From IMG/VR virus record IMGVR_UViG_3300021961_000400, positions 1 to 30,715 of that record: DNA of 30,715 nt; one strand, given 5' to 3'. The translations under genes and the position numbers were made by a program. Of the stretch, positions 154 through 27,695 are shown one piece after another. The DNA comes from a virus. The notes under the pieces are model-generated. The model was given only the letters and a program-made list of their open reading frames with translations. It ran no database searches and was not told the origin of the DNA. Numbering within the stretch: the first letter of the stretch is position 1; the number at the start of each line of letters is the position of its first letter.

Positions 154-810
154 CTATTTTGTACCTATAGCCATAAATCTATCATAATAAACTTTGCCTT
201 CCCAGTTATAATATGATTGTTCGGCTACACCCTTGTATAAAACATTAGTGATTCCTGTGTTGTCTAAGTGTCTTTCTATGGTATCTACACAGTTTATACC
301 GTACATTTCCTGTATTACGTTACTTGATTGTAGCGCAAAAATACAATCAGTATTAGTAGTGGTCAACTCTTTGAGAGGATACATCTGTTCACATCCAAGT
401 GAAATAACAATGTCAGTATTAAGAGCATTTATGTTATGGAAAGCAAAGGGTATATCTAAACATAAATGATTTATGTCTACACCGTTATCTACATAGTATT
501 TGTTAAACACTTTAGAAAGTTCTAAAGCCTCATTATCAATATCAATTAAGTCCATATGCTTAACTTTTATATTTTCACATATGAGGGGCACAAGAGGAAA
601 CCCTAACCAAGAATTTAAAACAATAATATTGTATTCTTTTTCCGAATCTAAATATTTAACAAGCTCTTCCATTAACCATACAGACGCATCCATAGTGTTA
701 GGATTCATAGACTTTCTAAAGTCCTCGTGTTTGTGAGGCATTTCGTGTTGTATTTTTTCAAGCGCCATGCCCCAATATCTAAAACTTGTTAGAAAATTAT
801 AGTTTAACAT
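154..810 (-). CDS. Class I SAM-methyltransferase-like protein
   Basis: The product has 218 residues. A segment near residues 68-100 resembles the SAM-binding core of class I methyltransferases: a hydrophobic strand (NIIVLNSWLGFP) followed by a second strand ending in acidic residues (MDLIDIDNEALELS). The usual Gly-x-Gly motif I is replaced by NSWLGFP, so catalytic activity is uncertain. I chose the ATG at 810 rather than the in-frame ATG at 834 because GGAGAG lies eight bases before it. This start overlaps the upstream glycosyltransferase-like gene by 14 bases, so it is the last gene of that minus-strand operon. It may modify a sugar or surface glycan made by its neighbours, which is inference from context. 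It could also be a degenerate fold homologue. Confidence 0.5.
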   Translation of the reverse strand: MLNYNFLTSFRYWGMALEKIQHEMPHKHEDFRKSMNPNTMDASVWLMEELVKYLDSEKEYNIIVLNSWLGFPLVPLICENIKVKHMDLIDIDNEALELSKVFNKYYVDNGVDINHLCLDIPFAFHNINALNTDIVISLGCEQMYPLKELTTTNTDCIFALQSSNVIQEMYGINCVDTIERHLDNTGITNVLYKGVAEQSYYNWEGKVYYDRFMAIGTK

Positions 811-1492
811 CTTGCGGTCTCTCCATTGAATCATATAAACAGATGAAAGGTGTTTCTCTGTATTTAAATTGTTCTACATCATTTGGATATTGATATCCAT
901 AGTTATAACTGTATACCCACCCGCTGGGGAATGTTGAAATATGTTCGTGGTTGAATCTATTATAAAAAAGATTGTCCAACCCTCTATAATAAAAAAACAT
1001 TTGACTTGGGTAATCCTTCGTCATTTTTAAAAACTTTGTCATAGATTCTGTTTCCATCAACGAATCATTCCATCTCAGTATACTTGAGTTTAGGTTAGTA
1101 TATGCGTGGGGTATATGTTTTGTTTCTTCTTTTATTTTTTCTAAATCGTGCCATTCTGTTTTCACAAATATTAGTTTGTCATAACAAGGATAATCTATGA
1201 AAGCATTTAAATTTCTCTGTATTGTAATGTCCAAATCTAAAAATAGTTTTTCCCCTTCTTGCCACACAATATCTGTATCAAACAAATACATTTTGTTCCA
1301 CCACTTTTCATAGTAGTTATCCTTAGGAATTGTTAGAGGAACAATATCAGGGTGTAAGTCTTTGGGATCTTCTGTTATGCAATAAAAAATAAAATTTCGT
1401 GTGACATGGTGCCTACACTGTTTGTATATTTCATTTACATGAGAGGAAGGATATTTTGTTCCCCACTTGACTGTGTATATGTGTAAACTCAT
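797..1492 (-). CDS. Glycosyltransferase-like protein, paralogue 1 (DxD motif)
   Basis: The product has 231 residues and is one of four tandem paralogues. Shared landmarks are an N-terminal strand ending KWGTKY (about residues 9-14), the nucleotide-sugar/metal motif LDLD (residues 85-88, D86 and D88) followed by ITIQRN, an NSS-x-L-x-W-x-D block near residue 136, a GLDN block near 170 and a C-terminal VYSYNYG block. DxD after a hydrophobic strand is typical of GT-A fold glycosyltransferases. The sugar and the acceptor cannot be read from the sequence. The start overlaps the stop of the upstream paralogue (ATGA), so translation is probably coupled. Targets may be virion proteins, host LPS or modified DNA. 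Confidence 0.65.
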   Translation of the reverse strand: MSLHIYTVKWGTKYPSSHVNEIYKQCRHHVTRNFIFYCITEDPKDLHPDIVPLTIPKDNYYEKWWNKMYLFDTDIVWQEGEKLFLDLDITIQRNLNAFIDYPCYDKLIFVKTEWHDLEKIKEETKHIPHAYTNLNSSILRWNDSLMETESMTKFLKMTKDYPSQMFFYYRGLDNLFYNRFNHEHISTFPSGWVYSYNYGYQYPNDVEQFKYRETPFICLYDSMERPQDVKL

Positions 1493-2307
1493 TTCCAGTG
1501 CGCTAATAAGTAAGGATCTACTAATTGATCTTGTTTTGTTTTGCCTCTACTTGAATCTTCAAAAGGCAATAAGTCAATATTGAATACACAGAGAATACAC
1601 CCTTTACGATAGGTGTCTACTCTCAAATCGTCAGCATCCCAGTCTCTGCCTCTATTGTAAGAGTAGGCCATCCAACTTGGGAAGTGTCCCCATAAAGGAG
1701 TCTTACTAAACTCACCCCAACGCCAACTGTGATAGTTATCAGTTCCATCAGTAAATGTAAACCATATTTGTTCTTGATGTTTCAATACATCTTTCCATAT
1801 ACATTCGCATTGGTCATCCGACCACACTTGACAGGAACCGTTTGTGTAAGCCCCGTGTGCAAGTTTAAATTGTCTTGACTTCATTGGTTTTGGATCTTGC
1901 CACCAACTTCTAAGTTTTGTAGGTCTATCTAAATCATATGTAATAATAGGACCCATATCATTTTGTATGATAACATCTAAGTCTAAGAAAACGAAACGCC
2001 CCGTAGGCTTATCGTCAGCGAAGTTATGAGTATTAAAAACAAAAGTTTTAGGACGATCCCAGCAGCGAGCCATTCCATACTTGAAACTATCAGAACCAAA
2101 CCAATACTTAGGGTGAATATTAGGAATGTCAGGAAAGTCAATAACTTTAATCCCAGGATCAAGGCCTTCAGGAAGATCGGTATAACAGTAAAAGTGAAAA
2201 TCAAAAATGCTATGGTCAGTGTTACGTTTAGCCATTGAATATAGTTTATTGACAAAATGTGGTCCATACTTTGTTCCCCACTTACAGCAGATATAATTTA
2301 CTCGCAT
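1489..2307 (-). CDS. Glycosyltransferase-like protein, paralogue 2 (DxD motif)
   Basis: The product has 272 residues and is the longest of the four paralogues. It keeps the N-terminal CKWGTKY block, the FLDLDVIIQND metal/nucleotide-sugar motif near residue 110, an NGS-x-Q-x-W block, a GTDN block and a C-terminal YSYNRG block. The extra length lies mostly before the DxD motif. An ATG at 2313 is also open, but GAGG lies eight bases before the ATG at 2307, and that start aligns better with the paralogues. It overlaps the upstream gene by ten bases and the downstream gene by four, which indicates one polycistronic message. The GT-A type assignment rests on motifs only, and the substrate is unknown. 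Confidence 0.65.
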   Translation of the reverse strand: MRVNYICCKWGTKYGPHFVNKLYSMAKRNTDHSIFDFHFYCYTDLPEGLDPGIKVIDFPDIPNIHPKYWFGSDSFKYGMARCWDRPKTFVFNTHNFADDKPTGRFVFLDLDVIIQNDMGPIITYDLDRPTKLRSWWQDPKPMKSRQFKLAHGAYTNGSCQVWSDDQCECIWKDVLKHQEQIWFTFTDGTDNYHSWRWGEFSKTPLWGHFPSWMAYSYNRGRDWDADDLRVDTYRKGCILCVFNIDLLPFEDSSRGKTKQDQLVDPYLLAHWK

Positions 2308-3056
2308 TTCCATAACCTCAATAATTCTTTATCCTTCAATCCCTCAAGTTTAATCTGTTTTTTTGCTTTAGGGTCTGGCGTTAGGTCTGTGTTAAATAAA
2401 CAAACTTTAGCATCAGGGCGGTATTTAAAAGGTGCAATGTCTTTAGGAAACTTCATTCCTCGGTTGTAACTATATATCCATTCAAAAGGAATGTTTTTCC
2501 AAAACTCTCTCTGTCTCCAATAATGATAGTTATCAGACCCTTTGAAGAATGTTTTAAAAACCATTTCTTCTTCCATTAAAACATCATAATATATTTGTTT
2601 AGTTTGTTCATCATCCCAGCACATCATACTGCTATTAAAAAACGTGCCTCTAATATCAATAAAAAGCCTTTCGTGTTTTTGTTTTGGGTCTTGCCATTCA
2701 CTATAAATTATTCTTGGTCTGGTTGCTAATTTGTCTAACTCGTCTATATTATTTTGAATGATAACATCGAGATCAAAATAGCACCACTGGCCTTCATATC
2801 CTAACCACTCTTTAGAGTTAAACACAAGAAACTTTGCTCGGTCCCAGCAATACTTTTCTTTACCGAACCAATAGTCAGGGTGAAGTAAACCATCATCAGG
2901 TATAGGGTGTGTGTCACATTCTAATCCCTCATTCTCATCTGTATAACACGTAAAGGTAAAGGGTTTCGTATAGTTTCTTTTAACCATACGATACAAATTG
3001 TTTACGTATTCTGGGGTATACTTATTTCCCCATTTTATACAAACGAAGTTCATCAT
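2298..3056 (-). CDS. Glycosyltransferase-like protein, paralogue 3 (DxD motif)
   Basis: The product has 252 residues. It shows the same ordered blocks: IKWGNKY near residue 10, FDLDVIIQNNID with the DxD pair near residue 95, FNSSMMCWDD near 145, a GSDNYHYWR block near 175 and WIYSYNRG near 200. It is closest to paralogue 2, with which it shares DVIIQN and SYNRG, and this suggests a recent duplication. The frame is open to a TTG at 3068. The tandem ATGs at 3056 and 3053 are likelier because GAAG lies six bases before the first. It overlaps the upstream paralogue by about 35 bases, which is long for phage overlaps. The substrate is unknown. Confidence 0.65.
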   Translation of the reverse strand: MMNFVCIKWGNKYTPEYVNNLYRMVKRNYTKPFTFTCYTDENEGLECDTHPIPDDGLLHPDYWFGKEKYCWDRAKFLVFNSKEWLGYEGQWCYFDLDVIIQNNIDELDKLATRPRIIYSEWQDPKQKHERLFIDIRGTFFNSSMMCWDDEQTKQIYYDVLMEEEMVFKTFFKGSDNYHYWRQREFWKNIPFEWIYSYNRGMKFPKDIAPFKYRPDAKVCLFNTDLTPDPKAKKQIKLEGLKDKELLRLWKCE

Positions 3057-3672
3057 AATATTCTTCAACTAAATTGGGAAAGTCTGCTTGTCCGTTAAGT
3101 AATGCTATAGTAGCATTTGGTTGATACTTATCACCGGCAAATTTATAAGAATAGATCTCACCCTCAGGCCAATGTTTAAATGTAAAGTTTTCATGGTAGA
3201 GAAATCTATCATCACCCGCATACTTTACCATGTAATAATCTTGATCTTTTTTCCAGTATTCATATATATGTCTTGCATCTTCCCACAACATTACACTTGA
3301 GTTAAAATTACTTAGATAATTGTACGACCATCGCTCATCTTTATGATAGGGAAAATTTTTATCCTTCCAATAAGTATAACAAATCATTGGTTGGTTGTCA
3401 AGACAATTAAACAAATGGTCAATGTTTTTTTGTATGGCCACGTCTAAATCTAAGTACAAAGTTTTGCCAAAATGATATTGGAAAAGTTTTATTTTCTCCC
3501 AGTGGCCTTCAGGTTCACCGTCAATCGGAATAGTATAAATATCAGAACGTAGCCCTTTAGGGTTATCGGTCACACATACATAATTGTACTTGCCATTTGT
3601 GTCAATATATATGCGGTTCACATCATCTGCTGTGTATTTGTCACCATACTTTAGTGTCAAAATAGTTTTCAT
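3022..3672 (-). CDS. Glycosyltransferase-like protein, paralogue 4 (DxD motif), first gene of the operon
   Basis: The product has 216 residues and is the shortest and most divergent of the four. It has LKYGDKY near residue 10, YLDLDVAIQKNID (DxD pair) near residue 75, FNSSVMLWED near 125, a GDDRFLY block in place of the DN block of the others, and IYSYKF near 180. The ATG at 3672 is preceded directly by an in-frame GTG, and ATG is the better choice. A minus-strand late promoter octamer at 3722-3729 lies about 50 bases upstream and no octamer occurs between the five minus-strand genes. One late transcript probably carries this gene, the three paralogues and the methyltransferase-like gene. Confidence 0.65.
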   Translation of the reverse strand: MKTILTLKYGDKYTADDVNRIYIDTNGKYNYVCVTDNPKGLRSDIYTIPIDGEPEGHWEKIKLFQYHFGKTLYLDLDVAIQKNIDHLFNCLDNQPMICYTYWKDKNFPYHKDERWSYNYLSNFNSSVMLWEDARHIYEYWKKDQDYYMVKYAGDDRFLYHENFTFKHWPEGEIYSYKFAGDKYQPNATIALLNGQADFPNLVEEYYDELRLYKMGK

Positions 3673-3688
3673 CACAAGTCCAAAAAGT

Positions 3689-8109: not shown

Positions 8110-8421
8110 ATGGCTATAGTCATAAAACCTAAAAGAAGTGAAACTGCTTCTTCAGCCCCGACTACAAGCGATCTTGCAGTCGGGGAGTTGGCCGTAAATA
8201 CAGCAGACAAAGTAATATATACTAAGTCCTCTTCAGGTAATATTATTGAACTTGCAAACTTTGCTGTAGCAGATCCTTCTCTGACTTTCCCAACAGGAGA
8301 TCTTGGAGATTTATCTTCGCTGAATACAGATTCTTTTGGGCAGACTATAGGGTCATCCTTTGATAGTTTGGATACCCCCTCAGGAACATTGACAACTCAA
8401 GATTTAGGAGCCCTTACCTAA
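8110..8421 (+). CDS. Short fibre-adapter protein, type A (copy 2)
   Basis: The product has 103 residues. Its opening (KPKRSETASSAPTTSDLAVG, then ELAVNTADKVIY) is a near copy of the protein at 6261. The tail differs, being rich in Asp, Ser and Leu with GDLGDLSSLNTDSFG and ending in TTQDLGALT. AAGGAG overlaps the preceding stop. Its stop overlaps the next start (TAATG), so it is coupled to the large fibre gene. It is probably a small virion protein that mates with the neighbouring fibre. No enzymatic signal is seen. Confidence 0.6.
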   Translation: MAIVIKPKRSETASSAPTTSDLAVGELAVNTADKVIYTKSSSGNIIELANFAVADPSLTFPTGDLGDLSSLNTDSFGQTIGSSFDSLDTPSGTLTTQDLGALT

Positions 8422-9971
8422 TGGCAGACCGCAGAACCAGAGTAAATACAAAGACAGCCGCCACATGGACCTCAAGCAATCCTGTTTTAGCAGTCGGTGA
8501 GGTAGGACATGAGTCCGATACCGGAAAAATAAAAGTAGGAGATGGCTCTTCTTCGTGGAGTGCGTTGTCATATACTTCTGCTACAACAGATACTTCTTCT
8601 GCTACTAACTTCACAAGCACATTACAGGTCAATGGCAGTGACGTTACTACAGATGCTGATATAGGCAGTACAATACAAGCATACGATGCTAACCTAACAG
8701 GGTTTGTAGCTGCGTGTAATCTACCAACATCAGATGGTACTGCGGATCAAGTATTAAAAACTGACGGAGCGGGTACAATATCATTCGCTACACAGTCCGG
8801 CGCCGGCGGTTCACTTTCAGACCAAGGTGTAACAGCATCCGCGTCTGAACTCAATACCCTCGACGGTATTACTGCTACAACGGCAGAACTCAATACCCTC
8901 GACGGTATTACTGCTACAACGGCAGAATTAAATTACTGCGATGGCGTAACAAGTAATATTCAGACACAGCTTGATGGTAAACAACCAGTAGACTCTAATC
9001 TATCGTCATTCTTAACAGCGTTAGATTTACCTACTTCTGATGGCACCAACGGACAAGTATTAGCAACTGACGGAGCGGGTAATATTACTTGGACTTCGGC
9101 TGCTGGCGGCGGCGCAAGTTCTGATCCTAACAATGTTGCCAATTATGTTCAACTCTCAGATGGTAGTGGCGGTTTTAAGTATGTTGACGATGGTACAACT
9201 ACTTATATGAAGTATAATACGACAGACAAGGCTTTACAAGTAAGCGGCCTCGATGCGCCAAGTCTAAGAAATACAGATCCAGGTTCTGTTGGTTTAAGCA
9301 ATACGACCAGATCACCTTCGATACTAATAACCTATTGGCTCGGTTCTACCAAATGGACTGACACTGTATTGGGATTCGGCGGCAGTGTAAGCGGGGGTCT
9401 CCCGGCAAATAAATACGCTCAAGCATATGGCATCTGGTGGTGGCCGAGTGGTGATAGCACAGGCGCTCAAGGGATTGACTTAGGAACATACCCTGATGCG
9501 ACATTGAGCCTCGCTAAAGTCAACCGAAAACATACTGTGGTATCCGTAGTCGGAGCAGGAACTAAGCTGTTTGATGCTAAATATGGTTATAACTTTATTG
9601 TTAATCAACCGGCCGGAGACTTTACCTGCAACTTTAGAAACATGAAAGACGAAAGCGATAATCAGCAACCGTTCCCATCAGGTGGTGGTTACTTTACCAA
9701 TGGTAGATGGATTGCAGGAGGAGTAAATAACGGTGATCGTATTGGAGCAATCACAGTAGAAATTATGATAATACAAGGCAGCACAGCATATATGCCTACA
9801 GCCGTTCAAATAGACGGAACTCCACATACTATAACCTGGGAAGGTAACAGTGCTCCAAGCGGAACAGCAAACGGTAAAGACATTGTGTATTTTGATATGT
9901 ATAAAATAGGCACGTTTGCAAGTCATACTATTCATGTACTGGGTCGTAGCAAATCGTTTGGCGGTGTGTAA
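8421..9971 (+). CDS. Tail fibre protein with a large unique C-terminal domain
   Basis: The product has 516 residues. Residues 1-50 form an adapter module (RRTRVNTKTAATW, then VGEVGHESDTGKIKVGDGS). The middle has shaft modules: LDLPTSDGT-x-x-QVL-x-TDGAG occurs twice, and the ELNTLDGITATTA motif is tandemly repeated. From about residue 290 the composition changes to a domain rich in Trp, Gly, Tyr and Lys (YWLGSTKW, GIWWWPSGDS, ending HVLGRSKSFGGV) that resembles nothing I recognise. A C-terminal domain of about 220 residues after a repetitive shaft is where phage fibres carry receptor binding, so this is the best candidate for the host-range protein. It is the last gene before gp13. Confidence 0.75.
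   Translation: MADRRTRVNTKTAATWTSSNPVLAVGEVGHESDTGKIKVGDGSSSWSALSYTSATTDTSSATNFTSTLQVNGSDVTTDADIGSTIQAYDANLTGFVAACNLPTSDGTADQVLKTDGAGTISFATQSGAGGSLSDQGVTASASELNTLDGITATTAELNTLDGITATTAELNYCDGVTSNIQTQLDGKQPVDSNLSSFLTALDLPTSDGTNGQVLATDGAGNITWTSAAGGGASSDPNNVANYVQLSDGSGGFKYVDDGTTTYMKYNTTDKALQVSGLDAPSLRNTDPGSVGLSNTTRSPSILITYWLGSTKWTDTVLGFGGSVSGGLPANKYAQAYGIWWWPSGDSTGAQGIDLGTYPDATLSLAKVNRKHTVVSVVGAGTKLFDAKYGYNFIVNQPAGDFTCNFRNMKDESDNQQPFPSGGGYFTNGRWIAGGVNNGDRIGAITVEIMIIQGSTAYMPTAVQIDGTPHTITWEGNSAPSGTANGKDIVYFDMYKIGTFASHTIHVLGRSKSFGGV
8847..8924 (+). repeat. Perfect 39-base tandem duplication in the fibre shaft
   Basis: Two identical 39-base units (8847-8885 and 8886-8924) begin GAACTCAATACCCTCGACGG and encode ELNTLDGITATTA. 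A degenerate third copy follows (ELNYCDGVTS). The identity at every base implies a very recent duplication. Confidence 0.9.
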
Positions 9972-22190: not shown

Positions 22191-23456
22191 ATGTTTTTAT
22201 CTGAACAGTTAGAGAAGAAGTGGGAACCTGTTCTTAAGCACGAGTCAATGACTGAAATCACTGACCCGTACAAAAGATCGGTAACTGCGGTTGTTCTCGA
22301 AAACCAAGAAAAAGCACTGCGCGAAGAAAAGCGTGCATTGTTTGAAGCAACACACGAAAACGCCACTGGCGCTTCAATCGACAACTACGATCCTATTCTT
22401 ATCAGCCTGGTTAGACGTGCTCTTCCCAACCTGATGGCTTATGACGTAGCTGGCGTTCAGCCTATGACTGGTCCTACTGGTTTGATCTTCGCTATGAAGT
22501 CACACTATGCAAGCCAGACTGGTACTGAAGCTCTGTTTAACGAAGCTGACACTGATTTCTCTGGTGCTGGTACTCACGCAGGTACTAACCCTGTCGATGG
22601 TACTTACACTACTGGTACTGGTGTTTCTACTGCAACTGCTGAAGGTTTCGGCGACTCAACTACTTTGCAAGAGATGGCTTTCTCAATTGAGAAGACCACT
22701 GTAACTGCCAAGTCTCGTGCTCTGAAAGCAGAATACACTGTTGAACTTGCCCAGGACCTGAAAGCAATTCATGGTCTTGACGCAGAAAGCGAACTGAGCA
22801 ACATTCTTTCTCAGGAAATTCTCGCTGAAATTAACCGTGAAGTTATTCGTACAATCTACAAAGTCGCTAAGCCTGGTGCAGCATCTACTGCAACTGCCGG
22901 TACTTTCGATCTTGACGTTGACTCAAACGGACGTTGGTCTGTAGAGCGCTTTAAAGGCCTCATGTTCAACATTGAGCGTGATGCTAACGTAATTGCACAA
23001 GATACTCGTAGAGGCAAAGGTAACTTTATCATTTGTTCTTCTGACGTAGCTTCTGCACTTGCAATGTCAGGCGTTCTTGACTATACTCCTGCTCTTAGCA
23101 CCAACCTTCAGGTTGACGATACTGGCAATACTTTTGCTGGTGTTCTTAACGGTCGTTACAGAGTATACATCGACCCTTACAGTGCTAACACTGGTGCAGC
23201 TTCTCAGTTCTATGTAGCTGGTTATAAAGGTACTTCACCTTATGACGCTGGTTTATTCTACTGTCCTTACGTCCCATTACAGATGGTTCGTGCAATTGAC
23301 CCTAACACCTTCCAGCCAAAAATCGGCTTCAAGACTCGTTACGGCATGATTGCTAACCCATACGTAACTCAGTCTGATGGTACTACTGACGGTGATACAT
23401 TCACTGCAGCACGTAACCAGTATTACAGAAAAGTTAAAGTAACTAACTTGATGTAA
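22191..23456 (+). CDS. gp23: Major capsid protein gp23
   Basis: The product has 421 residues, shorter than T4 gp23 (521). Family blocks are RRALPNLMAYDVAGVQPMTG, GLIFAMKSHYA, FSIEKTTVTAKSRALKAEYT, ELAQDLKAIHGLDAESELSN and KIGFKTRYGMIANPY. LFE-A at residues 50-53 matches the gp21 cut rule, predicting removal of about 52 residues, close to the 65 removed in T4. It has its own late promoter, a strong AGGAG site and a strong terminator directly after it, fitting the most abundant virion protein. The sequence should be good for placing this phage in the g23 tree. Confidence 0.97.
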   Translation: MFLSEQLEKKWEPVLKHESMTEITDPYKRSVTAVVLENQEKALREEKRALFEATHENATGASIDNYDPILISLVRRALPNLMAYDVAGVQPMTGPTGLIFAMKSHYASQTGTEALFNEADTDFSGAGTHAGTNPVDGTYTTGTGVSTATAEGFGDSTTLQEMAFSIEKTTVTAKSRALKAEYTVELAQDLKAIHGLDAESELSNILSQEILAEINREVIRTIYKVAKPGAASTATAGTFDLDVDSNGRWSVERFKGLMFNIERDANVIAQDTRRGKGNFIICSSDVASALAMSGVLDYTPALSTNLQVDDTGNTFAGVLNGRYRVYIDPYSANTGAASQFYVAGYKGTSPYDAGLFYCPYVPLQMVRAIDPNTFQPKIGFKTRYGMIANPYVTQSDGTTDGDTFTAARNQYYRKVKVTNLM

Positions 23457-23490
23457 GAATAAAAAGAATCCCAATAGGGACGTTTTTGAA

Positions 23491-23515
23491 GGGGCTATTC
23501 GTAGCCCCTTTTTTT
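23491..23515 (+). terminator. Rho-independent terminator after gp23
   Basis: GGGGCTA, loop TTCG, TAGCCCC, then seven T. This is a perfect seven-base-pair stem closed by a UUCG-type tetraloop, 35 bases after the gp23 stop. It is the only textbook terminator I see in the window and isolates the virion genes from the haem-copper gene pair. Confidence 0.95.
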
Positions 23516-23534: not shown

Positions 23535-23542
23535 TATAAATA
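23535..23542 (+). promoter_or_regulatory. T4-type late promoter octamer for the haem-copper gene pair
   Basis: Exact TATAAATA 20 bases after the gp23 terminator and 59 bases before the ATG at 23601. A near copy, TATAAATT, lies at 23524-23531. It places the accessory genes under the phage's own late control. Confidence 0.82.
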
Positions 23543-23600
23543 GTGTAAACCCGCTGAGATAGCGCTACGATTCCTGTAATGGATAATACGGAGAATTCAC

Positions 23601-24869
23601 ATGAAGAAATTTTTACTTCTTATGTTACTACCTTTGACAGTAACAGCACAAACATACACAGACGGTGTTGCTGATATTATTAACAACAACTGTGTAGTAT
23701 GTCATCGTCCTGGTGGCATAGGACCAATGAGTTTTGAAACCTACGAACAAGTAAGACCTTGGGCACCTCTTATACAAATGCGAGTAGCAAACAGAGAAAT
23801 GCCTCCTTATGCTTACGACCATGGCATTGGTATACAAGACCTTCAAGGCGATTGGCGTCTATCACAAGAAGATATAGATACTGTTGTTGCCTGGGTAAAC
23901 AACGGCTCACAGTATGGTAATGCTGATGTGGTAATACAACCACCTGAATTGCGAGATCCAGAAGCATGGAACTTTGAAAGTGACTTTGGCGCACCAGACG
24001 CAATCATTCCTTCAGTAGCAATAGACATTCCTGCAAGTGGTAATGATATGTGGCACAAGCATTTAGTACCAACAGGGTTAACTGAAGACCGTTGTATCAA
24101 AGCAGTACAAGTTAAACCACGTGGCAATGCTAAGTCAGTTGTCCATCACGCTAACTCAAGCATTATCACAGCGGAAGGGCGTGAAGGCATGCTCACTGAG
24201 TATGCTATGGGAAAGTGGGGAGAGATCGTGCCAGAGGGAGTGTGTCGCACGATCCCAGCAAACGCAGAAGTGTCGTGGGACATTCATATGTTCCCCGGTG
24301 GACTTGGCGCAATGGCTCCAGGAGCGGTTATCAAAGACAACGTAGTGGAGATTGGACTCTGGTTATATACCGAAGAGGAAAGCAAACAATTAAAATACAA
24401 ACAAGATTTGAGTTTGTATCGCCTTGGCGCCCAGGAAGACTTAATAGTCCCACCCAATGGATATGCAATGACGCAGGGCTTTCACAGTTTCGATCATCCT
24501 GTACGTTTAGATAGTTTTCAACCACACGGACACCTGCGTATGAACGCAGCAAGTCTTGAAATCTTCTACCCACAAACAGGACGCACAGAAGAAATTAGTC
24601 AGATAAGCAACTGGAGTGCAACATGGCATCACAGTCACTTATACGATCCTGATGTAGCACCATTAATACCAACAGGTGCTGTTATCATTCTCAAGCAATG
24701 GTATGACAACACAGCAGCCAATCCAAATAATCCAGATCCAGACTTTTGGGTAGTAGGCGGTAGTAGAACTGCGGATGAGATGACTCACGCTTGGCTTGCC
24801 ATTACACACTTAGATGAAGAAGGATTCGAGCAATTGAAAGCACAAAGAACTATTATGGGAGATGATTAA
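23601..24869 (+). CDS. Exported haem c / type II copper monooxygenase-like protein, copy 1
   Basis: The product has 422 residues. A Sec signal peptide (residues 1-16, cut after TVTA) leads to one c-type haem site CVVCH (31-35) followed by GGIGPMSFETYEQVRPWAP and REMPPY, the usual cytochrome segment of this protein group. Residues 130-410 match the copper type II ascorbate-dependent monooxygenase fold (PHM/DBM family). Likely CuA ligands are H182, H183 and H229, and likely CuB ligands are H309, H311 (PHGH) and M394 (ADEM). The usual HHM is HHA here. The reaction is unknown, but the family hydroxylates C-H bonds using copper, and the haem may pass electrons. It has a good ribosome site (CGGAGA) and a late promoter, and is coupled to copy 2. 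It acts in the periplasm. Confidence 0.82.
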   Translation: MKKFLLLMLLPLTVTAQTYTDGVADIINNNCVVCHRPGGIGPMSFETYEQVRPWAPLIQMRVANREMPPYAYDHGIGIQDLQGDWRLSQEDIDTVVAWVNNGSQYGNADVVIQPPELRDPEAWNFESDFGAPDAIIPSVAIDIPASGNDMWHKHLVPTGLTEDRCIKAVQVKPRGNAKSVVHHANSSIITAEGREGMLTEYAMGKWGEIVPEGVCRTIPANAEVSWDIHMFPGGLGAMAPGAVIKDNVVEIGLWLYTEEESKQLKYKQDLSLYRLGAQEDLIVPPNGYAMTQGFHSFDHPVRLDSFQPHGHLRMNAASLEIFYPQTGRTEEISQISNWSATWHHSHLYDPDVAPLIPTGAVIILKQWYDNTAANPNNPDPDFWVVGGSRTADEMTHAWLAITHLDEEGFEQLKAQRTIMGDD

Positions 24870-26101
24870 TGAGTAGGATAAATTCTTTCACAGCTACTAT
24901 TGGCATTGTAGTATTGTTGCTGGGGCTTAGAGCCGAAGCAAACGAGTACGTAGATAAAGTGGCGCCTATACTGATAGAGCAATGTCAAATGTGTCACAGA
25001 GAAGGTGGCATTGCTCCTTGGGCTATGAGTAACTATCAAGTAGTACAGGCATTTGCTCCTGCAATCAAAGAGGCTATTGTATCAAGACGTATGCCTCCTG
25101 GACAGATTAATCCCAAGTACAGAGACACTATTATCAATCACAGAACATTAAGTGATGATGAAATGAAAACTCTCGTAGATTGGGTTGATGCAGGTGCACC
25201 TGTTGAAGGTGTAATAGATCCTCTAACTCAAACAGTATACCCTGATTCAGAATGGGTACACGGTGAACCTGATATGATTGTTGAAGTACCTGCACAAGAA
25301 ATACCTGCAGGCCCATCAGCAATACCTTATCGCTACGTAGGAGTAGACTTAGGCCTTACAGAAGATAAGTGGCTACGAGGTTCAGAGTATTTGCCTTCAG
25401 AGCCTACTGTAATGCACCATATGCTAAACTCAGTTTCAATACCTGGTGAGCGCAACGGTAACATCTTAGGCACACAAGGCGCTGAGCAGCAGAACATGGA
25501 CTATGCAAGTATCAGTGCTTATGTTCCTGGTGGCGATCCTGACTTCTATGATGAAAACACAGGTGGACTATTGCGAGCAGGCAGTAAAGTAAACTTGCAA
25601 CTACACTATACGCCAGACGGCACACCACGTACTGATAAAGCACGTATCGGTCTGTACTTCCATGACGAAGGCGTAGTACCAGAAGAAAGAATGGCAGGCG
25701 ACTGTGCGTGTATCTTCCCAGACAAGTGGACACCGATTCCTCCATACGATCCTAACTTTATGCAAGAAGCTGAGATTGTACTAAAGAATGATGTAATGCT
25801 GCACACATTCTTACCACATATGCACTTCCGTGGTAAAGCAATGCGAGCAACAGCACACTACCCAGATGGTACAGACGAAGAGCTTATTGATATTCCACGT
25901 TATGAATATGCTTGGCAACTATCATACACATGGAGAGAGCCTAAGTTTTTACCACAGGGTACACGATTACACGTAAAAGGTTGGTTTGATAATTCGGCCG
26001 ACAATCCTATGAACCCTGATCCAAGCAGAGAAGTACCTTGGGGACAAATGTCGGAGGACGAAATGTTCTTCGGTGCGTTTACGTGGAAAAATATTGAATA
26101 G
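24869..26101 (+). CDS. Exported haem c / type II copper monooxygenase-like protein, copy 2
   Basis: The product has 410 residues. A Sec signal or membrane anchor (residues 7-24, then EANEYVDK) precedes haem site CQMCH (39-43) with GGIAPWAMSNYQVVQAFAP and RRMPPG. The monooxygenase part has the full ligand set known from PHM: HHM at 183-185, H246 in LQLHYTPDG, PHMH with H317 and H319, and M399 in the SEDEM block near the end. DNSADNPMNPDPSREVPWG is the typical C-terminal signature. It shares its whole architecture with copy 1, so the two are tandem paralogues that may form a heterodimer. TAATG overlap with copy 1 and GGGAG seven bases before the ATG indicate coupled translation. The substrate is unknown. 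Confidence 0.85.
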   Translation: MSRINSFTATIGIVVLLLGLRAEANEYVDKVAPILIEQCQMCHREGGIAPWAMSNYQVVQAFAPAIKEAIVSRRMPPGQINPKYRDTIINHRTLSDDEMKTLVDWVDAGAPVEGVIDPLTQTVYPDSEWVHGEPDMIVEVPAQEIPAGPSAIPYRYVGVDLGLTEDKWLRGSEYLPSEPTVMHHMLNSVSIPGERNGNILGTQGAEQQNMDYASISAYVPGGDPDFYDENTGGLLRAGSKVNLQLHYTPDGTPRTDKARIGLYFHDEGVVPEERMAGDCACIFPDKWTPIPPYDPNFMQEAEIVLKNDVMLHTFLPHMHFRGKAMRATAHYPDGTDEELIDIPRYEYAWQLSYTWREPKFLPQGTRLHVKGWFDNSADNPMNPDPSREVPWGQMSEDEMFFGAFTWKNIE

Positions 26102-26104
26102 GGC

Positions 26105-26133
26105 TTGACAAGTCTTAAAAAATCGTTTATTAT
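26105..26133 (+). promoter_or_regulatory. Host-type sigma70 promoter (TTGACA, 17, TATTAT)
   Basis: The -35 box TTGACA (26105-26110) is perfect, the spacer is 17 bases and the -10 box TATTAT (26128-26133) has one mismatch. It begins four bases after the stop of the monooxygenase pair. The predicted start is near 26140, directly before a strong hairpin. It should be active before gp55 is made. Confidence 0.75.
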
Positions 26134-26142
26134 ATATAGTAC

Positions 26143-26169
26143 GGAAAGTAGCACTATGTGTTACTTTCC
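26143..26169 (+). ncRNA. Strong 5' stem-loop in the leader of the small membrane peptide gene
   Basis: GGAAAGTAGCAC, loop TAT, GTGTTACTTTCC forms 12 pairs (one G-U). The predicted transcript starts only about three bases before it. No T tract follows, so a terminator is unlikely. The likely role is protection of the message 5' end, or a small structured RNA. This is a structure-based call only. Confidence 0.55.
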
Positions 26170-26199
26170 TATACACACCCGTATAACTAACGATTAAAG

Positions 26200-26232
26200 A
26201 TGCCCACAAGGCAAGGACTTAAAAAGAAATGA
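26200..26232 (+). CDS. Possible ten-residue leader peptide (MPTRQGLKKK)
   Basis: A minimal open frame of ten codons whose stop overlaps the start of the membrane peptide gene (ATGA). The peptide is basic. Its ribosome site is poor. It may be chance, or a coupling or attenuating leader peptide. Confidence 0.2.
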   Translation: MPTRQGLKKK

Positions 26233-26333
26233 GAAAGCGCGATTACACTTTAGCAACAATCCAGTCATTAGCAACTGTCATTATAGCATTCGGTTTACCG
26301 GCGGCCATTGTATATGCTAATTACGGTTTCTAA
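26229..26333 (+). CDS. 34-residue single-pass membrane peptide
   Basis: The peptide begins MRKRDYTLATIQSLATVIIA and ends in FGLPAAIVYANYGF. The N-terminus is basic (RKR), and residues 11-29 are hydrophobic enough for one membrane helix with the N-terminus inside. AAGGA lies about 11 bases upstream. Upstream are a sigma70 promoter (26105-26133) and a 12-pair hairpin, so it is probably an early gene set among late ones. Small early membrane peptides of T4-like phages often act on the host envelope, for example in superinfection exclusion or lysis timing. That role here is inference. The gene is short enough to be missed by automated callers. No family is recognised. Confidence 0.55.
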   Translation: MRKRDYTLATIQSLATVIIAFGLPAAIVYANYGF

Positions 26334-26408: not shown

Positions 26409-26416
26409 TATAAATA
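26409..26416 (+). promoter_or_regulatory. T4-type late promoter octamer for the tube-like gene
   Basis: Exact TATAAATA 25 bases before the ATG at 26441. The predicted start near 26423 keeps the AAGG ribosome site (26429-26432) in the leader. Confidence 0.82.
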
Positions 26417-26440: not shown

Positions 26441-27019
26441 ATGGCATACACACCGATAAACAATATAACTGAAGCATCATTTGATGCGGGAAATCCGAGT
26501 GAACTTGATTACTTAAAACCGAATGGTTTTCGTTTTCAGGTTCACAACCTGCCAAATGTTTCTTTTTTCTGCCAGTCGGCAAATATACCTGACATTACTA
26601 TAGGTGAAGCACAGAAAGCAACACCTCTTGCAGATTATTTTATGCCAGGCGAAAAGCTATCTTTTGGTCAGCTCAATATACGTTTCTTAATACAAGAAAA
26701 TATGGCTAACTATAAAGAGCTATACAACTGGCTTATTGGTATGGGCAATCCTGAAAAAACAGAGCAATACACTAACTATCTTCAAAGTCAGTTATATAGA
26801 TTCCCAGGAAAAAATGTAACTAAAACTATTGATGGTTTATTAAGTGACGCAAGTTTGTTTGTATTAGACTCTAATGATAATCCATCTACGGAAATTATAT
26901 TTCAAGATGCTTTTCCTACAGCATTGAGTGGTTTAGATTTTGATCTGACCGACTCAGAATATTTTGTTGGTCTTGCATCATTTAGATATAGGCAATATAA
27001 AATAAATGCTTTGAGTTAG
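26441..27019 (+). CDS. Tail-tube superfamily structural protein (gp19/gp54/gp48-like)
   Basis: The product has 192 residues. The pattern follows gp19 of the same phage: NGFRFQVHNLP aligns with NQFRVLLGFP, then CQSANIPDITIGEAQKATPL, a strand KLSFGQLNIRFLIQEN and a helix YKELYNWLIGMGNP. A C-terminal strand block follows (GLDFDLTDSEYFVGLASFRY). From family knowledge, T4 gp54 (tube initiator) and gp48 (tube cap) share this fold with gp19. A baseplate tube-initiator role is therefore likely, but which one cannot be fixed from sequence alone. It has a late promoter 25 bases upstream and no overlap with the next gene. Confidence 0.65.
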   Translation: MAYTPINNITEASFDAGNPSELDYLKPNGFRFQVHNLPNVSFFCQSANIPDITIGEAQKATPLADYFMPGEKLSFGQLNIRFLIQENMANYKELYNWLIGMGNPEKTEQYTNYLQSQLYRFPGKNVTKTIDGLLSDASLFVLDSNDNPSTEIIFQDAFPTALSGLDFDLTDSEYFVGLASFRYRQYKINALS

Positions 27020-27023
27020 TTTT

Positions 27024-27695
27024 ATGTTTGATAATGTTAGCGTGATGAGTTCTGGGACTACCGGAAAACCAAAGTTATATTACCAACCTCCACAAAAATT
27101 AATTGCTGCTTCTCAGGTAGCAATTGATGTATTAAAACTAACCCCTGAAAGTAAAGTATATACGTGTTGTAAACTAACACACGCCGGAGGGTTATTGGTA
27201 ACAAAACTACCATGTGAAGTGATAGGTTGTAAAAATACTATTGTAAAGTTTAGTGCATATGACTTTGTTAAAGACATACGATTGTATACTCATAGTCATA
27301 TTACACCCGATCATGCAAGAGCCATTATGGGTACTAAGGGATTTCGTAATTTAGATCTTACAGGCATAACAATAATGTGCGGCTCTGACAGAGTAACATG
27401 GGATATTATTGAGGCGTTCGTAAGTAAAGGTTGTAGGTTCATAACTAATTGGGGTATGAGTGAGATAGGACCTGTTGCAATCAATCATACTTTTGATAGT
27501 ATAGAAGAAGTGTACAGAGTAAAAGAAATATGCCCTGAAAATATGACTGTTTTGGGTGGGCATAAATATTGTGAATATAGGGTTGATAAAACTCTTTGGG
27601 TAAAAGGTGAATTATGTATCTATGACGATTGGTATAACACAAAAGATGTTGTAACCGAAATAGATAATATATTATTTTATATAGGTAGAGTATGA
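27024..27695 (+). CDS. Truncated acyl-adenylating (ANL superfamily) enzyme
   Basis: The product has 223 residues, under half of a normal acyl-CoA synthetase. It begins directly at the phosphate-binding loop: SSGTTGKPK at residues 9-17 (motif A3). It continues to the adenine/Mg block NWGMSEIGP at 142-149 (A5) and ends LWVKGELCIYDDWYNTKDVV, then FYIGRV (A7-A8). The N-terminal A1-A2 region and the C-terminal lid with the A10 lysine are missing. Since A3 and A5 are intact, adenylate formation may survive, but thioesterification should not without a partner. It has no clear ribosome site and overlaps uvsY by four bases (ATGA). The substrate is unknown. Confidence 0.75.
   Translation: MFDNVSVMSSGTTGKPKLYYQPPQKLIAASQVAIDVLKLTPESKVYTCCKLTHAGGLLVTKLPCEVIGCKNTIVKFSAYDFVKDIRLYTHSHITPDHARAIMGTKGFRNLDLTGITIMCGSDRVTWDIIEAFVSKGCRFITNWGMSEIGPVAINHTFDSIEEVYRVKEICPENMTVLGGHKYCEYRVDKTLWVKGELCIYDDWYNTKDVVTEIDNILFYIGRV

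Follow-up and report, generated by a model that had tools for sequence, protein, structure and literature searches.

The stretch of DNA analysed here, referred to as the window, is a 30,715-nt fragment from IMG/VR that originates from a T4-like myophage. It keeps the T4 gene order (gp17, gp18, gp20, gp21, gp22, gp23, tail-tube gene, UvsW), and between gp23 and the tail gene it carries two plus-strand ORFs, gene A (23601..24869, 422 aa) and gene B (24869..26101, 410 aa), which share a single base (TAATG). This overlap and the T4 core neighbours agree with the first-pass annotation, which had described two coupled genes in a T4-like core region. The upstream flank of the A-B pair is the major capsid protein gene gp23 (22191..23456, plus strand; Pfam PF07068, E 1.8e-142), and the downstream flank encodes a tail-tube-like protein (26441..27019, plus strand; phrog_45, E 2.6e-34). 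By gp23, the nearest cultured relatives are Methylophilales phage Melnitz (69% identity) and the Pelagibacter phages Mosig and HTVC008M, all within 68–69%. The A/B site is empty in these three phages, where the next gene starts ~75–95 bp after gp23; the A-B pair of the window is therefore a clean insertion.

A terminator-like hairpin (GGGGCTA-TTCG-TAGCCCC followed by a T run; 23488..23511, plus strand) was read in the sequence 3' of gp23, and TATAAATA, a late promoter element of the T4 type, is located at 23535..23542 (plus strand), ~60 nt 5' of gene A, just as the earlier claim of a late promoter after a gp23 terminator had stated. The window contains 10 copies of TATAAATA against 3.3 expected, a number reached in none of 100 shuffles. 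Six of the 10, all on the plus strand, lie just 5' of late genes: besides that of gene A, they are found ~30–65 nt 5' of gp18, gp19, gp22, gp23, and the tail gene at 26441, which has its own element at 26409-26416 (plus strand). Among phage homologues, the element was present 5' of 20 of 64 A genes (~1.6–1.9 expected) and 5' of none of 52 B genes. This promoter evidence suggests that A and B are expressed late in infection. Directly 3' of gene B (26105-26333, plus strand), there are a near-consensus sigma-70 promoter (TTGACA-17-TATTAT), a hairpin, and a membrane-like ORF of 34 aa (26229-26333, plus strand); this arrangement is possibly a small RNA or an early mini-gene.

Both proteins consist of a hydrophobic N-terminus, one CxxCH motif, a distal methionine in an MPP motif, and then ~300 residues with the pattern HH, H, HxH, M. 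In A, these features correspond to a Sec signal sequence (residues about 1–17), a mono-haem c domain (CVVCH 31-35, M67), and a dicopper domain resembling that of peptidylglycine monooxygenase (PHM), with the putative ligands H182, H183, H229, H309, H311, and M394. In B, they correspond to a Sec signal sequence (residues about 1–25), a mono-haem c domain (CQMCH 39-43, M75), and the putative ligands H183, H184, H246, H317, H319, and M399. The signal sequence, single CxxCH, and His/Met pattern noted at first for each copy were thus recovered, the ligand positions given for the second copy were correct, and the residues listed above for A are their equivalents. All ten ligand positions (four haem, six copper) were invariant across the full-length sequences compared (129 of A and 110 of B, the window's own included), which means that both the CuH set (His-His plus His) and the CuM set (His-x-His plus Met) are retained throughout. 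The only invariant non-haem cysteines are C165 and C215 in A and C279 and C281 in B. Animal PHM has conserved disulphides, and these were not matched in the A and B alignments. The dN/dS values of A and B were about 0.05–0.11, showing that both genes are under strong purifying selection. Searches with the window proteins gave only weak cytochrome c matches in Pfam and no match in PHROGs or NCBIfam.

The first-pass annotation had likened the His/Met pattern to that of copper monooxygenases of the PHM/DBH type, and two lines of evidence agreed on this. One is structural. The AlphaFold models had a mean pLDDT of 57 (B) and 50 (A) with a TM of about 0.44, a low quality arising because the predictions used shallow alignments of close relatives. 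Even as a weak model, B retrieved only PHM or DBH at ranks 1–30 in a Foldseek search of the PDB (probability 1.00, E down to 9e-8), and the likewise weak model of A had DBH as its best match (E 1e-4); at low confidence, both models match the two-domain jelly-roll fold of PHM/DBH. The geometry of the sites is only a prediction because of the weakness of these models. The other line is a profile built from relatives in phages and bacteria, which matched human DBH with E 3e-6. In this alignment, the HH, H, and HxH of the family fall on H262/H263, H333, and H412/H414 as counted along the alignment, residues that we take to be copper ligands of human DBH. The methionine of the sixth ligand falls outside the DBH alignment; in the two bacterial relatives that were checked, it falls within the PF03712 match or at its end. 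PF03712 matched 17 of 45 relatives weakly (best E 2.6e-4), those with listed scores falling below the cutoff. The window proteins themselves gave no match to PF01082 or PF03712 at the curated cutoff, a profile of the C-terminal part alone found no PHM in the PDB, and a BFVD search found no convincing viral PHM-like fold. We conclude that the domain of A and B is homologous to PHM/DBH, yet lies outside the curated family.

The cassette is not confined to the window. In IMG/VR, patterns for B found 118 stretches and those for A found 261; neither INPHARED phages nor plasmids gave a match. The 153 loci fetched were reduced to 75 contigs by merging overlapping ones. In these contigs from T4-like phages, the cassette occupies at least six genomic contexts: it follows gp23 or lies next to a tail fibre gene (with IscA and UvdE), lysozyme (with PhoH), Hsp20, RNR, or tail-sheath and CHASE2 genes. 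The order gp23-A-B-tail recurs in other metagenome assemblies. A is first and B second on the same strand in 58 of 58 unique pairs, and at least 13 contigs with more than 2.5 kb of downstream sequence have A without B. A is the core of the cassette and B is optional, and A/B is a widespread mobile phage cassette. In 11 merged contigs, a small cytochrome c gene precedes B (Pfam Cytochrom_C, E 2e-8). This gene, situated between A and B, encodes a membrane-anchored mono-haem cytochrome c of family f13 (L032:223-588 and about 20 loci), and the relatives of the family in the Pseudohongiellaceae genomes searched are distant, at 46% identity or less. Other exported proteins were seen beside the cassette. 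FecR-like, CHASE2-like, and curlin-repeat-like proteins, recognized by eye, flank A/B in one T4-like group (L037, L039, L041; contigs up to 340 kb), and the lysozyme/PhoH-context cassettes adjoin a large exported protein without a Pfam match (L031:3610-5703) or one with extremely abundant Asn/Thr/Ser repeats (L029:5503-6534).

Homologues were also found in bacteria. A-type genes up to 83% identical to those of phages are present in 99 of 119 sampled Pseudohongiellaceae genomes, mostly in 10–20 copies per genome and in one genome in up to 40, and they are rare elsewhere (3 of 399 genomes sampled across Pseudomonadota). Among cellular sequences, those closest to B come from Gammaproteobacteria, mainly Pseudomonadales (Pseudohongiella, OM182-like); they share about 54% identity with phage B and bear an extra AhpC/TSA (redoxin) domain that phage B lacks. 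Because of this distance and the missing redoxin domain, the function of phage B may have shifted. In the tree, phage A and B nest among Pseudohongiellaceae genes. The phage B sequences group in a single, fully supported clade on a long stem, and those of phage A branch at two or three positions within the bacterial A genes, although a single clade for phage A was not rejected (AU p 0.31). Tree topology thus speaks for A having been captured two or three times, with B in one clade. Judged from the tree, the source of the phage genes is a paralogue family in Pseudohongiellaceae, and this gene ancestry alone points to Pseudohongiellaceae-like hosts for the phages. The North Sea HTCC2089 clade, which is related to these bacteria, has been described as oxygenase-rich (PMC8371827).

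The idea that phages copied A-B in one piece from a paired bacterial locus is unsupported because phage A and B belong to different paralogue lineages and phage B is without the redoxin domain. A MAG contig that carries A-B (L156) was set aside as a possible donor, its A being truncated and the contig a patchwork. A T4-like gp23 was co-binned in a Pseudohongiellaceae MAG (G507), with no A/B adjoining it in the stretch read. One Pseudohongiella chromosome has five A-type genes in tandem (L260; G007:C1:1829500-1849000) and about 40 genes of the A/B superfamily in all, a large expansion of uncharacterised paralogues.

The neighbours of bacterial A genes often include an exported protein of ~310 aa, a redoxin-type B, and an MFS transporter. 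Some clusters also have a PQQ dehydrogenase, a GMC oxidoreductase with gluconate-2-dehydrogenase subunit 3, a cupin, a molybdenum aldehyde oxidase, or an acyl-CoA ligase; dehydrogenases are frequent neighbours, not constant ones. Hydroxylation followed by alcohol and aldehyde oxidation and then CoA activation is an order that would fit the needs of a catabolic route. The ~310-aa exported protein, which has no Pfam match and usually adjoins A-type genes (L261:8921-9874 and relatives), is a candidate partner or substrate-binding protein; none was seen next to phage A/B.

The most likely role of A and B is periplasmic oxidation chemistry. Our preferred reading, to which we assign a probability of about 0.55, is that they form a host-derived auxiliary metabolic cassette for periplasmic C-H hydroxylation late in the infection of Pseudohongiellaceae-like hosts. 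The proteins would be made late from the phage promoter, exported by Sec, given haem c by the host machinery, and loaded with two coppers in the periplasm. The PHM/DBH-like domain would then activate O2 at two uncoupled coppers and hydroxylate a C-H bond of a small, dissolved organic substrate. Electrons could come from the host respiratory chain via the fused haem c domain, replacing ascorbate, and in some phages the separate small cytochrome c could deliver them as well. PQQ or GMC dehydrogenases of Pseudohongiellaceae-type hosts would oxidize the hydroxylated product further, and the phage would in this way sustain the first step of host catabolism once host gene expression fails. Two features expected of auxiliary metabolic genes were found: A and B occur repeatedly among phage genes on viral contigs (75 merged contigs), and they have ancestry in cellular metabolic genes, as seen in the tree and the dehydrogenase neighbours. 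These results suggest that phages with A/B alter host oxidation of organic compounds during infection.

The strongest rival is that A and B modify the host envelope: by oxidizing some component of the periplasm or outer membrane late in infection, they would prevent superinfection or aid lysis and would not serve catabolism. This reading holds its rank because some phages set A-B beside lysis genes. The cassette of several phages lies next to genes for a T4-type lysozyme and for small membrane proteins, the FecR-, CHASE2-, and curlin-like neighbours of one phage group are exported, and predicted export under a late promoter would suit this function too. However, the neighbours in most contexts are unrelated to it (gp23, tail fibre, IscA, RNR, PhoH, Hsp20), and bacterial relatives adjoin dehydrogenases and transporters, not envelope genes; we consider envelope modification unlikely. 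It is quite unlikely that A and B are instead redox or copper-handling proteins, acting as an O2 or electron sink or protecting against copper or oxidative stress with no hydroxylase turnover. The haem c domains, the separate cytochrome c in 11 contigs, and the redoxin domain on bacterial B relatives point in that direction, but six catalytic-type ligands would be needless for a simple carrier or sink and yet are invariant, and the redoxin domain has been lost from phage B.

The first-pass annotation had also considered placement on virions. Capsid and tail genes flank A/B in the window and have the same type of late promoter; nevertheless, this placement is unsupported and a structural role appears very improbable. 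The location of the cassette varies and is not tied to the structural module, close relatives that share the phage core (Melnitz, Mosig, HTVC008M) are without it, and A and B have Sec-type signal sequences, which, to our knowledge, T4 structural proteins do not have. A chimeric assembly of bacterial DNA at 23550-26100, raised at the outset as an artefact that might explain the locus, is consistent with the bacterial nearest cellular relatives of the genes (A up to 83%), but it is refuted by the recurrence of the same gene order in independent metagenome assemblies, and the phage copies form their own lineages, bear phage late promoters, and occupy at least six phage contexts. We regard its probability as negligible.

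Compared with known systems, the periplasmic hydroxylation cassette that we favour shares the two-domain fold (by Foldseek) and six copper-ligand positions, five of them aligned to human DBH, with PHM/DBH (PF01082 plus PF03712); it differs in the N-terminal haem c domain, the bacterial and phage origin, the few cysteines, and scores below the Pfam cutoff. The uncharacterised redoxin-cytochrome c-PHM-like proteins of Pseudohongiellaceae are direct homologues, with identities of up to 83% to A and up to 54% to B, from which phage B is set apart as a long-stem clade lacking their AhpC/TSA domain. The closest precedent is phage-encoded PmoC and AmoC, for example, the pmoC of large freshwater phages (PMC7674155), likewise a host-derived copper monooxygenase gene with retained copper ligands. 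PmoC, however, is one membrane subunit of pMMO, whereas A and B are predicted to be two soluble exported proteins, each bearing haem c together with the full set of PHM-like sites. Related marine T4-like phages, the pelagimyophages, also carry extra envelope-directed genes, for example, csgGF curli pores (PMC7029224, PMC9004378), but these proteins are unrelated to A and B, and the main texts of the two reports mention no monooxygenase or cytochrome. The main texts of two AMG surveys likewise do not mention a PHM-like or haem c-PHM protein. In agreement with the initial remark that no such phage system had been described, none was found in PMC open-access full text. A/B would be host-derived oxygenase cargo, a known kind, with a chemistry and architecture unreported in the phage literature searched.

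If the reading is true, dicopper chemistry that activates O2 and has electron transfer built in would join the known phage cargo, and the phages concerned are so common that IMG/VR yields hundreds of matches. A wider proposal is more tentative, and we hold it to be somewhat less than an even bet: a widespread group of marine T4-like phages would deploy a self-contained periplasmic oxygenase, made up of PHM-type dicopper enzymes fed by their own haem c and at times by a separate cytochrome c too. It would have been captured from uncharacterised paralogues that serve as a main oxidative toolkit of Pseudohongiellaceae, and infection would directly control the oxidation of marine dissolved organic matter. 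The bacterial family, with 10–40 copies per genome in Pseudohongiellaceae and no curated model above cutoff in the libraries searched, may be central to organic matter consumption by these marine bacteria. The phage copies single out the paralogue that may be limiting for the host, and they are compact proteins suited to expression.

Elsewhere in the window, an overlapping block of minus-strand genes (154-3675) gave no Pfam match for the three genes tested. A mini AMP-binding (ANL) protein of 223 aa (27024-27695, plus strand) with the motifs SSGTTGKPK and NWGMSEIGP (PF00501 positions 170-374, E 4.7e-12) is flanked by the tail-tube gene and the gene at the UvsY position; its N-terminus appears too short for an acyl-CoA ligase, and it has no match in INPHARED. 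A 516-aa protein (8421-9971, plus strand) has an N-terminal major tropism determinant domain (PF18454) and is likely receptor-binding.
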